From NCBI GenBank assembly GCA_001918155.1, contig MNFJ01000094.1, positions 1-43,704 on the forward strand: 43,704 bases of DNA, written 5' to 3'. The position numbers were made by a program, and so were the translations under genes. Below, one piece after another: positions 10,951-37,545 of the stretch (its first letter is position 1; the number at the start of each line of letters is the position of its first letter). The notes below the pieces were generated by a model. That model saw only the letters and a program-made list of their open reading frames with translations, was not told the DNA's origin and did no database searches. The stretch comes from Deltaproteobacteria bacterium 13_1_40CM_4_68_19 (GTDB taxonomy: Bacteria; Myxococcota; Myxococcia; Myxococcales; 40CM-4-68-19).

Positions 10951-11984
10951 ACGCTCCCCCCGGGCCTGCGGCCCTCCCAGGCGTCCTGCAAGAGCTGGCG
11001 AACGGCGCGGCGCTCCAGCGGTCGCGGGTTCGGATACGGCTGCATCGTGGCCATCTCCGCGGCCCGGTCGAGGCCACTCTCCGGCATGCCGAGATCGCGC
11101 AACGCCATGGACGCCCCGAGCCGCCGGGCGAGATCGTATACGCCGGAAGGGGCCTCTTTGGCGTTCAGAGCGGCGGCGATCCGCCGCATCGCCTCGGGCG
11201 CGGCGGACTGGTTGTAGGCGAGCGCGTGGGGCAGCACCGCAGCATGCGTTTCGGCATGCGGAAGGTTGAAGGTCCCGCCGAGCGTGTGACAGAGCTTGTG
11301 GTGCAATCCCATCGCCGCTCCGGCGAGGACGAGGCCGCAGAGCCATGCGCCATACAGACAGCGCTCGCCGTCCCCGGGAAGGCCCCCAGCGAGGGCGCGG
11401 ATCCCTTCCTCGGCGAGCAGGGCATGCACCGGCGCGACGTTCTCGGCGTAGAGGCCTTCGCAGCCGTGCGCGATCGCATTCATTCCGCTCATCGCGGCGA
11501 TCTTCGGGGGAAGCGGGGCAATGACCGCGGGGTCGTAGATCACCGTGCGCGGCAGTACCCGGACGTCGCGGCCGGTCTTCTTCTGCCCTCCTTCGGTGAT
11601 GCCGAAAACGGGCGTCATCTCCGAGCCGGAATAGGTGGTCGGAATGGCGAGGATGGGCAGGCCCGACTCGAGGGCAATGGCCTTGGCGAGTCCGATGGTC
11701 GAGCCGCCTCCGACGGCGATCGCGCAGTCGGCGTCGAGCCGCCGCGCCTCCTCGCGAGCAGCGCGCGCCACCTCGATCGGGACATGCATCACCGCGCCGT
11801 CGAAGATTCCAGCACAGCGGCCGGCGAGGCGGCGTTTGATGTCGTCGGCGGCTCGCCGGTGCGGCGTGGAAAGCACGAGCGCTCGCCTCGCGCCCAGAAG
11901 CTCGATCTCGCGCTCGAGGTGCGAGAGGCTTCCCGCTCCGAACAGCACCCGGGGACTGTGGAAGGCGAAGGAGATCATGCGCAC
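10947..11984 (-). CDS. Maleylacetate reductase
   Basis: A 345-residue iron-type alcohol dehydrogenase. The nucleotide site is GGGSTIGLAKA, followed by ILAIPTTYSGSEMTPVFG, and the maleylacetate reductase hallmark GGTFNLPHAETHAAVLPH lies in the helical domain. It reduces maleylacetate to 3-oxoadipate with NAD(P)H, the step after hydroquinone or hydroxyquinol ring cleavage. The start overlaps the CoA-transferase B gene by 10 bases; a second in-frame ATG lies at 11978. Its stop overlaps the binding-protein start. By position and chemistry it corresponds to HapF/PnpF. Confidence 0.94.
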   Translation of the reverse strand: MRMISFAFHSPRVLFGAGSLSHLEREIELLGARRALVLSTPHRRAADDIKRRLAGRCAGIFDGAVMHVPIEVARAAREEARRLDADCAIAVGGGSTIGLAKAIALESGLPILAIPTTYSGSEMTPVFGITEGGQKKTGRDVRVLPRTVIYDPAVIAPLPPKIAAMSGMNAIAHGCEGLYAENVAPVHALLAEEGIRALAGGLPGDGERCLYGAWLCGLVLAGAAMGLHHKLCHTLGGTFNLPHAETHAAVLPHALAYNQSAAPEAMRRIAAALNAKEAPSGVYDLARRLGASMALRDLGMPESGLDRAAEMATMQPYPNPRPLERRAVRQLLQDAWEGRRPGGSV

Positions 11985-12631
11985 ATGTCCTGTGGCGGAG
12001 GAACGAGCGCGGCGCGCGTGACCCGCTGCAGCTCGGCGAAGGTGAGCCCGTCCACCATCTCACGGACGCGCAGCCCGACAGGCGTGACGTCGATCACCGC
12101 CAGGTCGGTATAGATGCGATCGACGCAAGCGACGGCGGTGAGCGGATACCGGCAGCGCTCGACGATCTTGCTCTCGCCCGCCCGCGTGAGGTGCTCCATC
12201 ATCACGAGCACCTGCTTGGCGCCGATGGCCAGGTCCATCGCGCCCCCAACCGCCGGGATGGCGTCCGCCGCGCCGGTGTGCCAGTTGGCCAGATCTCCCG
12301 ACACCGAGACCTCGAACGCGCCGAGCACGCAGATGTCGAGGTGCCCTCCGCGCATCATCGCGAAGGAATCGGCATGGTGGAAGAAGGAGCCGCCCGGCAG
12401 CAGCGTGACGGGCTGCTTGCCCGCGTTGATCAGGTCGGGATCCTCCTCGCCCGGAGCCGGCGCTGGGCCCATGCCGAGGATCCCGTTCTCGCTGTGGAGG
12501 AAGATCTCGCGATCGCGCGGCAGGTAGTTGGCGACCAGTGTGGGCATGCCGATGCCGAGATTGACGTACGCCCCCTCCGGAATGTCGCGCGCCACCCGGG
12601 CCGCGAGCTGCTCGCGGGTCAGGCGCTTCAT
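11975..12631 (-). CDS. 3-oxoacid (3-oxoadipate) CoA-transferase subunit B
   Basis: The 218-residue beta subunit of a class I CoA-transferase. It has the SENGILGMGPAP motif containing the catalytic Glu that forms the CoA thioester, and the downstream PGGSFFHHADSFAMMRGGH. It transfers CoA from succinyl-CoA to 3-oxoadipate, the expected next step after maleylacetate reductase. The ATG at 12631 overlaps the subunit A stop as ATGA. Acetoacetate is an alternative substrate in this family; the operon favours 3-oxoadipate. Confidence 0.93.
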   Translation of the reverse strand: MKRLTREQLAARVARDIPEGAYVNLGIGMPTLVANYLPRDREIFLHSENGILGMGPAPAPGEEDPDLINAGKQPVTLLPGGSFFHHADSFAMMRGGHLDICVLGAFEVSVSGDLANWHTGAADAIPAVGGAMDLAIGAKQVLVMMEHLTRAGESKIVERCRYPLTAVACVDRIYTDLAVIDVTPVGLRVREMVDGLTFAELQRVTRAALVPPPQDMCA

Positions 12632-33293: not shown

Positions 33294-34473
33294 TCACCGT
33301 CGGAAAAGGGCGACTCCGAACGCCAGCAGGGCGATCGCCAGCCCGATGATGAAGACGTCGTAAGAGATGACCAGCATCTTCCTTCTCATCAGCATCAACT
33401 GGCGCTGGAAATAGAGCTCTTCCAGCAATGCCTGCTTGAGGGCGGCTGGATCGGCGGCAAGACGGTTCATGCCCACGATGAAGTCGTCGAGCGAAAGCGG
33501 CGTCTGGTTGAACAAGGAGAGGAGATTGCGCTCGTAGACTGGCGCGTCAGCGCCCCAGACCCGCTGCATTCCCTTCCGGCCGACGCGCATCGAATAGATC
33601 GAGACCAGGATCGTGCTCACGTTGACGGCCAGCAGCAGAAGCGTCGGGGCTATCAACTCGCGGTGCGTTTCGACGTGCCGGGGCAGGAGCGCGACGATCA
33701 GCGAGATCATGATCCCGTTGACTTGGATCATGGTGGCGGTACGGCGCTCGGCGATGGCGAAGGCACGCATCCCGTTCCGGGTGAGCGAGTCGAAGATGTC
33801 TTCGACGGTCCTGCTCAGGCCCTTCGACGCCTTGGTCTGCTCCGCGACCTGCCTCGCGGCTTCTTCGATCTGCTTGCGGAGCAGCTTGTGCAGCGCGACC
33901 AGGTTCGTCGCGCGGCGCTCGTGATACTCGAGCTGCGCATATCGCGTCCTGAACGGATGGCTCTCGAGGAACGCGATGCACGTCTGTGTCCACTCGACGT
34001 CCGTCTTCGGCTCCCCGTTGCGTCGCTCCCGCTCCAGCCGGACCTGCTCCATTTCGGAGAGATAGCCCTTGGTCGCCGTCGGCACGAGCAGCGCGTCGTA
34101 CAAGACGTCATTGACGAGGTTGCCCGCCGCTCCGTCGTCCGAGGCTTCGATGCACCTCGCGACGGCGTCCGCGAGGCCCTGCGGCTGCTTTTGCGAGGCG
34201 AGAAACGATCGCGCGAGCTCGGCGCTCTTGGGCCGATCGCCGTCACGCGCGGCGGCATAACCCGCGTCGTGGAACCAGGCGGCGAGGAGGACGACCGTCA
34301 GGTCTCCGTCCTCCAGCTTGGATCCCTTGGCGATGTCCCGGCAGGACGCGACGAGCTCGCGGGTGCGGGCGAAATTGTGGAACACCAGGGGGGGTATCGG
34401 CGCCAGCGCCCTGGAAGATCTCGAACACGTGCTGCGCGGCGAGGCGGACGATCGGTGGGTCGTGCTTGCTCAA
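33294..34473 (-). CDS. HD domain-DUF5706 (Pycsar-effector-like) membrane protein, frameshifted at a G7 tract
   Basis: An N-terminal HD-type hydrolase domain (VFHNFARTREL, AAWFHDAGY) is followed by a helical linker and a C-terminal DUF5706/Pycsar-effector transmembrane module: ATMIQVNGIMISLIVALL, APTLLLLAVNVSTILVSIYS, RNLLSLFNQ and a last helix near the end. In Pycsar anti-phage systems proteins with this TM module respond to cyclic UMP or CMP. The frame from 33294 opens only at 34385; the missing 29 residues (SKHDPPIVRLAAQHVFEIFQ, GAGAD) lie in another frame starting at TTG 34473. The two meet at seven G (34388-34394, C on the coding strand); six would join them. No cyclase gene is adjacent. 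It follows the BamA-fusion gene by 10 bases. Confidence 0.75.
34388..34394 (-). other. Seven-base homopolymer at the HD-DUF5706 frameshift
   Basis: A run of seven G on the plus strand (seven C on the coding strand). With six, the coding sequence would read through as DTPLVFHNF, the expected start of the HD domain; with seven it reads DTPPGVPQF and leaves the domain frame. It could be a contingency tract, programmed slippage or a sequencing error. Confidence 0.7.
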
Positions 34474-34483
34474 GCGCTCCCCC

Positions 34484-36937
34484 TCAGAGCCCGAACCCCG
34501 TGGACACGTAGAACGCCGTCCGCTCGTCGGAACGGACGATCATCGCATTGACGGAGGTCGCTAGCACCAGACCGGGCCCCGCGGCGAAGACGGCGAGCCA
34601 CAGCCCTCCCCCGGCGCCGTTGTGCCAGGTGGATGAGGGTATATGGGCGCGAAAGACGCGGCCGACGTCAGCGACGCCGGAGATTCCGTACCGGAACGGC
34701 AGCAGGGCGAGGAACCTCCCGATGGCGATCCGCAGCTCGGCGTTTCCCCCGACGGCGGCGTCCCCCGCGTACCGGTTCGCGTCGAATCCCAGCAGCGGAA
34801 TGCCGCCCATGCCGGTGAGGGCGAGCGGGACCGGCAGGGCAGCGCCGCCGAGAAACGCTGCGTCGAAGAACGGATACGTCCCCCAGTTCTTCTCCGCGGC
34901 GAGGTGGAGGTCCAGGAACACGTCCGTGATCAGGCGCCCGCCGACCGACGCGGACGCGGAGGCGTGGAGCTTGCTGAACGCGTGCGGGTTGCTGAAGATG
35001 GCCGGCGTATGCCGTCCGGCGAGGCGGAAGCGGAAACCTCGCTGCGAGGTGAGCGCGCCGGTCCTGGTATCGAGCAGGAGGCCCACCTCGCCACTCCCCT
35101 GTGTCATTCCGGCCGATCCGTACTCGCTGCCCGCCACGCTCCCGCTGTTCTGGATGGCGGAGACGTGCTTGATGGGAAAGCCGGCGTACGCGCGAAGGGG
35201 TCCGGTCACGTTCAACTGCAGGGCGGGAAACGCGGCCAGGTGCTCCTGCCGCACGTCGTAGTGTCCGGCCGATTGCTCCGCGTCGATCCGCTGCGTGTCG
35301 TTCCCGAACCCGTAGAAGTTCAAGACCTCGACGCCCGAGTACCAGAGCGAAACCAGGACGCTCAGCGGCGAACGCGTGCGGAACTCGGTGGTGTATTGAA
35401 GCCGTGGGCGGCTCACGGCCGTCGCCCAGGCGGCGGCAAAGTCCATCCGCGACGCGTAAGGATGAAGCTCGAAGCCGTAGCTCGTCAGCTCGGCGCGGAC
35501 GCCGGGGAACAGGCCTCGCGTCGAGTCGTAGGAGAAGACAGGGAAGAAGAGCAGATCCCGTCCCCAGTCGCGGACGGGCTCGTATCGCGCGCGAACCGGT
35601 TCGGGCTCGCGCGGGTCCGGAGGAACGATGCGGACGCGGATGCCGCCGTCCGAGCCTTCGTCGACGACGCGGCCGCCGCGGGGAGTGTACACGCGCAGCT
35701 CCGAAGTCTCCTCCGAGACGAAGACGCGCCGGAAGCGCGGGGTGCTGACCTCGACGGACCCCTGCGGCTGCCGGCGCACGCGGATCGTCTCACCCTCGGC
35801 CGCGCGCAGGTCGACCTCTGAAGCGAGAAGCCGGTAGTAGTCGCGCGACGCCGCTACGAGCCCGTCCCGCCTCGCACGCAGCAGCCGCTCGAGCTCTGCC
35901 CCTCCTTTGGCATACATCGCGGACGGCAGCTGGCGAACCGCATTCGAGATCACCTCGTCCGTGATCTTGCCGACTAGATCGGCCGTTTCCGACTCCCACG
36001 TCCCGCGGTCGAGCCAGACGAGAAATCGCCGGTCGGTGAAGCGGCCGGAGAACGTCAGCTTGTCCATGGGGGGATAGCTCTCGCCGAAGCCCGCGAGCTG
36101 CTTGGTGTAGTACTCGGCGACGCTCGGGATGATGCCGCCGAATCGGCTGAACGCCTGGTCGCGGTCTCGCGGGATCGGCCGCCAGACGGTCCGGCCGTCC
36201 TGGTCGAACCTCGCCCAGCGCCATTGGTCGAGGTGCCGATCCCAGTCTCCGACGAGCACGTCGATGAGGCGGGCGCGCAGGTAATTGCGTGAGTCGACCT
36301 CATCCTTCGAGCGCGTCTCCAGCCGCACGAAGACGCTCAGCGTGTCCTTCAGCTTGTCGACGCCGACCTCGCTGCCCTCGTCCCGCTCCTCCAGGAGACC
36401 AAGCATACCGACGAACATCGCGCGGAACTCACCCAGCTCCGGGTCGTCCGGCATCACCGCCAACTGTGGATGCGCATGCACGACGCCGGTCGCATCGAGG
36501 AACGGAGGCACCACGAGCGCCGCTCCGGGATGGATGGTGCTGGTCAGGTCCTGGAGGATGTCGCCGAAGATGGACGCTCGCGTATCGGGGTCCAGCAGGC
36601 CCGACACGTCCTTGTCGACCGAGCGAAAGACCCAGGCGTGGCCGTTGCCGCTCTTCAGCCGGAGATTCCTCGTCTGCAGGCCTCCGCCGCGGCGCTGCGG
36701 ACGGAGCCCTCCATCGAAACCTTGCAGGTCGAGCACGGGCACTTCCACGGGCGTCGTCCATAGGTCTCGCCACTGTTCGCCGAGCAGCAACCTTCGGAAC
36801 CAGCCGGCACCGTACCCGGGTCCGGGCGTGACGACCTCGACGCGCGTCTCGCTGGCAGGAACCGCATCCGCCGCGCTCGCCCACAGCCCGACGATCAGCG
36901 CGAGCGGTGCCACTGCATGATCCAGGAAATTGCCCAT
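34484..36937 (-). CDS. Kinase-like domain fused to BamA/Omp85-type outer-membrane barrel
   Basis: 817 residues. A signal peptide (about 1-26) is followed by an N-terminal domain of roughly 350 residues and a linker, then an Omp85/bacterial surface antigen barrel (about 480-817) with strands such as SPLSVLVSLWYSGVEVLNFY and GEVGLLLDTRTGALTSQRGF, ending AFYVSTGFGL. The N-terminal domain carries LRLKSGNGHAWVFRSVDKD, then LVGDWDRHLDQWRW and IPRDRDQAF. The last two resemble the catalytic loop and metal-binding motif of Fam20C/CotH/HipA-like kinases (DRH, DxD). A similar layout exists in uncharacterised BamA/TamA family proteins of other phyla as I recall. Function is unknown; a periplasmic kinase tied to a barrel is inference. 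Confidence 0.82.
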   Translation of the reverse strand: MGNFLDHAVAPLALIVGLWASAADAVPASETRVEVVTPGPGYGAGWFRRLLLGEQWRDLWTTPVEVPVLDLQGFDGGLRPQRRGGGLQTRNLRLKSGNGHAWVFRSVDKDVSGLLDPDTRASIFGDILQDLTSTIHPGAALVVPPFLDATGVVHAHPQLAVMPDDPELGEFRAMFVGMLGLLEERDEGSEVGVDKLKDTLSVFVRLETRSKDEVDSRNYLRARLIDVLVGDWDRHLDQWRWARFDQDGRTVWRPIPRDRDQAFSRFGGIIPSVAEYYTKQLAGFGESYPPMDKLTFSGRFTDRRFLVWLDRGTWESETADLVGKITDEVISNAVRQLPSAMYAKGGAELERLLRARRDGLVAASRDYYRLLASEVDLRAAEGETIRVRRQPQGSVEVSTPRFRRVFVSEETSELRVYTPRGGRVVDEGSDGGIRVRIVPPDPREPEPVRARYEPVRDWGRDLLFFPVFSYDSTRGLFPGVRAELTSYGFELHPYASRMDFAAAWATAVSRPRLQYTTEFRTRSPLSVLVSLWYSGVEVLNFYGFGNDTQRIDAEQSAGHYDVRQEHLAAFPALQLNVTGPLRAYAGFPIKHVSAIQNSGSVAGSEYGSAGMTQGSGEVGLLLDTRTGALTSQRGFRFRLAGRHTPAIFSNPHAFSKLHASASASVGGRLITDVFLDLHLAAEKNWGTYPFFDAAFLGGAALPVPLALTGMGGIPLLGFDANRYAGDAAVGGNAELRIAIGRFLALLPFRYGISGVADVGRVFRAHIPSSTWHNGAGGGLWLAVFAAGPGLVLATSVNAMIVRSDERTAFYVSTGFGL

Positions 36938-36951
36938 TGGAGCTCGCCCGC

Positions 36952-37545
36952 TCAAGTCGCCCCGGCGACCTCGGCAGGTGCTGCGACATTTGTAGGCGAA
37001 TGAGCCGTGCTCTGCGCGGGCTCGATGTCCCACCGGGAGTCCGACTCGAGATCGGCGGCGATCACTTGCTCGTTCTGGGAGACCGCCATGCCGCAGGGAC
37101 CGCCGTCGGGATACGCAGGGCTTCCGTCGATCGCCCGGATGAAAGCAAAGGGAAGCCCAGGTGCGGCGCCGTGGCGCAGCCGCTTCTGGCTCTCGACTTC
37201 GTGGAAAGCCTCCGCCAATTGCGCCGTCCGCTCCGCGACCACCGCCTCCAGCCCCTCCTGGGCGCGATGGAGCGCCTGTTCCGCCCGCTGGCGCACGCTG
37301 ATCTCGTCCGCCAGTTGCGCGTTCTGCCGGTGGATCATCCAGCCCACCAACGCACCGATGGCCAGGGCGATGACTGTTGCGCCGGCGATCCCATACCAGA
37401 ACAGATCCACCAGCGACCGGAACCGGGCGCTTTCGCGGCCCACGATCAGGGCGAACAAGGCGAGCACGAGCACGCACAGCGCGAAGTACTCGCCCGCCAG
37501 TCGGGAGGGGGAGAGGCGGAAGAAGCTCCTCCCTTTCAACTGCAC
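36952..37545 (-). CDS. Truncated membrane sensor (two TM helices, coiled coil, partial GAF)
   Basis: 197 residues from GTG 37545 (GGGAGGAG upstream). Two helices (about 17-36 and 50-70) precede a HAMP-like coiled coil (QRAEQALHRAQEGLEAVVAE). Then comes the middle of a GAF domain (FIRAIDGSPAYPDGGPCGMA, VIAADLESDSRWD), after which the sequence turns into STAHSPTNVAAPAEV and stops. No HisKA or HATPase domain follows. GAF domains of this type are normally longer and feed a kinase, so this looks like a sensor gene that has lost internal and C-terminal parts. It ends 14 bases before the BamA-fusion start. Confidence 0.65.
   Translation of the reverse strand: MQLKGRSFFRLSPSRLAGEYFALCVLVLALFALIVGRESARFRSLVDLFWYGIAGATVIALAIGALVGWMIHRQNAQLADEISVRQRAEQALHRAQEGLEAVVAERTAQLAEAFHEVESQKRLRHGAAPGLPFAFIRAIDGSPAYPDGGPCGMAVSQNEQVIAADLESDSRWDIEPAQSTAHSPTNVAAPAEVAGAT

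Follow-up and report, generated by a model that had tools for sequence, protein, structure and literature searches.

A predicted kinase-fold domain joined to an Omp85-type outer-membrane barrel, and its linkage to HD-PycTM genes

Among the Omp85 proteins described by Heinz and Lithgow (2014), the 'Metallo' subfamily carries an N-terminal metallophosphoesterase domain (PF00149), and the 'noNterm' barrels are devoid of POTRA domains; both are expanded in the Bacteroidetes/Chlorobi, and their description nowhere uses the word kinase (PMC4104836). PlpD, a patatin–Omp85 protein, has its enzyme domain on the periplasmic side (PMC11116518), and CotH is reported to have residues corresponding to D166, N171 and D184 of PKA (PMC12189002). 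A literature search for kinase and Omp85 together returned no match. To our knowledge, kinases are hardly known between the bacterial membranes, and we know of no ATP-driven kinase established in the Gram-negative envelope.

The stretch of DNA analysed here (the window) comprises the 43,704 nucleotides of contig MNFJ01000094.1 from Deltaproteobacteria bacterium 13_1_40CM_4_68_19, the assembly of which is incomplete (3.46 Mb, 196 contigs, 75% complete). The reading frame of interest runs from an ATG at 36937 to a stop at 34484, with six stops on the plus strand over the same interval, and its product, P0001, was modelled at full length (pLDDT 90.4) as a signal helix, a kinase-like domain, a seven-strand linker and a 16-strand barrel (Table 1). 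The two motifs picked out by a first-pass annotation, GDWDRHLDQW (residues 230–239) and IPRDRDQAF (residues 255–263), are present at the positions it gave, with the strand now corrected to minus. Its description of a secreted domain ahead of an Omp85-type barrel is likewise borne out, by a signal peptide in the sequence and the 16-strand barrel in the model.

Table 1. Coordinates in the window of the P0001 gene, its predicted parts and the adjoining genes
Feature	Coordinates	Strand	Basis or remark
Exported outer-membrane protein (predicted), 817 aa (P0001)	34484..36937	minus	Signal peptide + kinase-fold domain + β linker + Omp85 barrel
Signal peptide region, P0001 1–26	36860..36937	minus	Sequence and model; modelled helix 4–22
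Predicted kinase-fold domain, P0001 33–372	35822..36841	minus	AF2 pLDDT 94.4; Foldseek to CtkA, PI4K-II, CotH
Gly-rich loop GGGLQT, P0001 84–89	36671..36688	minus	Between two N-lobe strands; G84/G85/G86 conserved
R105-S-V-D-K109 of P0001	36611..36625	minus	Candidates for the β3 lysine role
Catalytic-loop-like GDWDRHLDQ, P0001 230–238	36224..36250	minus	D233 as putative catalytic Asp; Q238 in Mg-binding Asn position
PIPRDRD, P0001 254–260	36158..36178	minus	D258 as putative DFG-type metal Asp
Seven-strand β linker, P0001 374–438	35624..35818	minus	Replaces POTRA domains; secondary structure of the model
Predicted Omp85 barrel, 16 strands, P0001 460–813	34499..35560	minus	Model; BamA/TamA matches; L6 motif LGF
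HD-PycTM (DUF5706) gene	33294..34473	minus	Starts 10 bp past barrel gene; frameshifted
GAF-like sensor fragment	36952..37545	minus	14 bp upstream; Pfam GAF_2 E 4.9e-5, sub-cutoff

The N-terminal domain of P0001 is predicted with high confidence to adopt a two-lobed kinase fold (AlphaFold2 with an 88-row alignment; pLDDT 94.4, pTM 0.93). When the domain model was compared with the PDB using Foldseek, all 15 of the matches with E ≤ 1e-3 were to atypical kinases: CtkA from Helicobacter was the best (2.8e-6), PI4K-II and CotH from Bacillus (5jda) scored 5e-6 and 7e-5, respectively, and 7vkb_A, named 'a bacterial kinase complex', was also among them. Weaker matches, in the range 0.005–0.03, were to HipA, HipT and Fam20C (5yh2; 0.015), and the best matches in a viral library were to proteins named as PI3/4-kinases, CotH or protein kinases, or to unnamed proteins. 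The TM-scores are modest, at 0.36–0.40 by query and 0.50–0.56 by CtkA, and, therefore, the domain represents a distant family and not a member of CtkA, PI4K-II, CotH, HipA or Fam20C. Comparisons of sequence profiles were weak yet consistent: GDWDRHxxQW aligned weakly with GNFDRHNGNW of CtkA (E 0.78), and hhalign in local mode gave scores of 29.6 with CotH and 28.3 with HipA, against maxima of 22.7 and 24.1, respectively, for nulls consisting of 15 column-permuted profiles; the score with HipA is weak, though above the nulls, and brings the catalytic loop into register.

Pfam gave no match to P0001, a kinase or defence assignment was absent from its Pfam, NCBIfam and PADLOC results, an anti-phage role found no support from PADLOC, and phmmer against the PDB returned an irrelevant match (0.32) and nothing else. 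Moreover, none of the kinase families in Pfam was matched at E ≤ 1 by the 88 domain relatives among the matches listed (25 of 36 chance-level families), and the family is, therefore, a separate one. Membership of CotH (PF08757), of HipA (PF07804) and of Fam20C was considered and rejected in each case, as the respective Pfam model was unmatched by the 88 relatives at E ≤ 1 among the matches listed; nor was CotH matched in the window's own genome. Where the first-pass annotation likened the motifs to those of these kinases, a kinase-like fold ahead of the barrel is supported by structure prediction, Foldseek and residue conservation, and assignment to the CotH, HipA or Fam20C families is not.

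The barrel is confidently predicted to be of the 16-strand Omp85 type. The modelled structure matches BamA/TamA at 1e-8 to 1e-6, and the NCBIfam model Omp85_fam gives an E-value of 2.5e-18 for P0001, a match that falls short of that model's curated cut-off. The Arg of the L6 R-G-F/Y motif is present in 65 of 69 members, the window protein having L716-G-F, and Pfam matched no POTRA domain in P0001, where the β linker takes its place. The family of kinase-fold proteins on outer-membrane barrels is real and widespread, with at least 583 loci, and neither the libraries nor the papers searched recognise its predicted kinase fold. It occurs in three architectures: kinase-like domain and barrel; metallophosphoesterase, kinase-like domain and barrel; and barrel-less lipoproteins, which carry a lipobox. 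The short form accounts for ∼50 of the 88 relatives in the fetched loci, and ∼27 have a long N-terminal extension; in the single long form tested (L077), this is a metallophosphoesterase (PF00149 together with Omp85 in Pfam). PF00149 is absent from the window protein according to Pfam, and a metallophosphoesterase gene adjoins a short-form member in three loci. Those relatives whose N-termini were read look exported, with evident signal peptides. The nearest named relative (L026) comes from a soil MAG of the Deltaproteobacteria; tblastn searches for the family gave five weak Bacteroidota records from plasmids, annotated as hypothetical or unannotated, and none from phages. The window's own genome contains a second family copy on contig C193 (L025, 5815–6651), in which the signal peptide and linker are kept, the kinase core (profile positions 36–318) is cleanly absent in frame, and the barrel is truncated by a tandem repeat.

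The first-pass annotation also proposed that P0001, the HD gene that follows and the truncated sensor that precedes it form one membrane-associated system, and the spacings on which it drew, 14 bp to the GAF fragment and 10 bp to the HD gene, are exact. The HD gene, which begins with TTG at 34473, carries DUF5706, now named PycTM; PycTM is the membrane domain of Pycsar effectors, such that control of HD-PycTM by cyclic nucleotides is possible. Linkage to this gene is strongly supported. The suggested survey of co-occurrence finds an HD-PycTM gene no more than 10 kb away in 32 of the 80 loci and, across 23 Bacteroidota genomes chosen for the kinase-like gene and not for the HD gene, 24 of the 29 full-length HD-PycTM genes have a family member within 10 kb, compared with 0.29 expected. 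The sister genome (G022) keeps the gene order, and its HD gene is intact and begins 12 bp past the kinase–barrel stop; in G039, the HD-PycTM gene is on the other side. Linkage to the sensor is not supported: a homologue of the GAF fragment is absent from the flanks of relatives, and the sister genome has a different sequence upstream of the kinase–barrel gene, on which grounds the fragment was rejected as a component. The window HD-PycTM gene is frameshifted at a C7 run (34388–34394) that falls past the initial ∼28 codons and ahead of the HD motif, through either assembly error or real decay, and some HD-site residues are lost both here and in its Myxococcota-side relatives. A second, full-length HD-PycTM copy lies elsewhere in the same genome (G000, contig C148, 3135–4226), with no kinase-like gene found on that contig.

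Other neighbours also recur. An SdiA-regulated propeller is found in 22 loci, usually directly upstream of the family member, together with PPK1 (16 loci), PAP2 (13), a GAF protein (10), a SixA-like phosphatase (6) and a class III cyclase (5). The class III nucleotide cyclase adjoins the kinase-like and HD-PycTM genes in L050, L054, L096, L098 and L105.

We consider it reasonably probable that P0001 belongs to the atypical protein-kinase superfamily and is an enzyme anchored in the outer membrane and facing the periplasm. The sequence shows a Sec signal that would export the protein, and the predicted barrel would fix it in the outer membrane, with the N-terminal domain forming a putative two-lobed kinase that presents a Gly-rich loop, a hinge, a catalytic D233, Q238 and a metal-binding D258. 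The reaction would most likely be transfer of phosphate or nucleotide to an envelope molecule, be it protein, lipid or glycan, and the metallophosphoesterase that many relatives have in the same chain, or encoded just upstream, could remove the modification. The linked HD-PycTM, SdiA-regulated propeller, PPK1, PAP2 and SixA genes would be consistent with a phosphate-centred envelope physiology. A variant of this explanation, differing in substrate and not contradicting it, has the kinase fold modifying not proteins but a lipid or other small molecule (inositol lipid, phospholipid, lipid A or glycan). PI4K-II features among the best fold matches, the neighbours include the PAP2 phosphatase, PPK1, the phytase-like/SdiA-regulated propeller and the metallophosphoesterase, and the enzyme is predicted to be at a membrane, all of which make the variant a tentative possibility; however, CtkA and CotH, which are protein kinases, match equally well, and the fold alone does not specify the substrate.

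The positions conserved in the 88-row alignment are G84, G85 and G86 (85, 86 and 83 of 88, respectively), R105 (88/88), K109 (86/88), D130, E183, D233 (85/88), R234, H235, Q238 (88/88), D258 (88/88), R259 and D260. Two motif patterns were used as search queries in gathering part of this alignment, and the counts are partly biased as a result; nevertheless, among further relatives that profile searches of whole genomes brought up independently of the motifs, D233 and Q238 are each present in 20 of 20 and D258 in 19 of 20. The motifs are, therefore, not due to chance, and the conservation of the DRH and DxD residues (D233, R234, H235, D258 and D260) that the first-pass annotation wished to see checked is found in this partly motif-selected alignment. 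In the model, R105 lies inside the third N-lobe strand (β3), K109 just past it and D130 in αC. The spacing of D233 and Q238 (+5) equals that of D166 and N171 in PKA, the unusual features being Gln at the N171-type Asn position and Arg at the β3 position. Judged by alignment and by position, the Gly-rich loop, D233, Q238 and D258 may be assigned roles as kinase residues.

Some paralogues are degenerate. L165 has DWDQQ and NRD; in L079, a tandem paralogue (11405–12631) adjoining an intact copy has lost the Gly loop and bears GDWERN and DKS motifs, the two being likely a pseudokinase pair; and L089 (8131–11476) and L095 (8114–11476) hold a divergent barrel-less pair, of which one member has a lipobox and keeps GDWDRH intact and the other has GDWSRR. 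Such visible degeneration fits expectation if some copies lose activity. It could also be read, along with the Gln and Arg substitutions and a periplasm with no obvious donor, as a sign that the domain is itself a pseudokinase, binding nucleotide, polyphosphate or a partner and regulating the barrel, the fused metallophosphoesterase or HD-PycTM without phosphotransfer. The periplasm is considered to be free of ATP, and we know of no ATP supply in that of Gram-negative bacteria. This point and the two substitutions also weigh against the preferred explanation, as do the modest TM-scores, the weak sequence relations and the lack of Pfam kinase matches among the matches listed. We, nonetheless, regard this reading as doubtful: D233, Q238 and D258 are near-universal across distant paralogues and phyla, and binding alone would not obviously need them.

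Returning to the periplasm-facing enzyme that we prefer, a periplasmic location of the kinase-fold domain is favoured by analogy, because PlpD keeps its enzyme domain there (PMC11116518). In an early proposal, PlpD exported its enzyme domain through the barrel (described in PMC4104836), and the domain of P0001 could similarly be a surface-exposed passenger, moved through the barrel in a type Vd-like manner to modify outside targets, but the patatin domain was subsequently shown to remain periplasmic (PMC11116518) and barrel-less lipoprotein versions of the family exist, which render this improbable. Finally, assembly roles have been suggested for 'noNterm' and similar barrels (PMC4104836), but it is highly improbable that the domain is an unrelated, non-kinase adaptor replacing POTRA in an outer-membrane assembly factor, with coincidental motifs, given the high-confidence kinase fold, the fact that every significant PDB match is a kinase and the placement of the conserved residues at kinase positions.

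An enzyme of the preferred kind would add a kinase to those enzymes already built onto outer-membrane barrels, and it would provide a specific candidate, open to experiment, for phosphorylation within the envelope of Gram-negative bacteria. As the family is widespread, commonly has a metallophosphoesterase fused or adjacent and is strongly linked to HD-PycTM genes, several orphan families could gain a function together. A more elaborate scheme, in which outer-membrane kinases with their own same-chain phosphatase would use a non-canonical donor and signal with inner-membrane HD-PycTM, we consider unlikely; polyphosphate would be a candidate donor because PPK1 is a recurrent neighbour.

In comparison with known systems, the window family shares with the Metallo and noNterm proteins an Omp85 barrel without POTRA, and its long relative L077 has their combination of PF00149 and Omp85; by contrast, a kinase-fold domain between PF00149 and the barrel went unrecognised in those proteins, and the window protein is without PF00149. 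The CtkA/HipA-type kinases provide the best fold match, with GNFDRHNGNW of CtkA aligning to GDWDRHLDQW, whereas the window family is set apart by its export, its barrel anchor and its Gln in place of Asn, and shows no Pfam HipA_C match among the matches listed. The kinase fold of CotH is matched by the window domain, but Pfam finds no CotH among the matches listed for the 88 relatives, and we know of no barrel on CotH. The secretory-pathway kinase Fam20C, albeit a weak fold match, is likewise an atypical kinase in an extracytoplasmic compartment. PlpD has the same plan as the window protein, namely, a signal peptide, an enzyme domain and an Omp85 barrel, although a lipase and a POTRA domain in PlpD stand where the window protein has a predicted kinase fold and a β linker.
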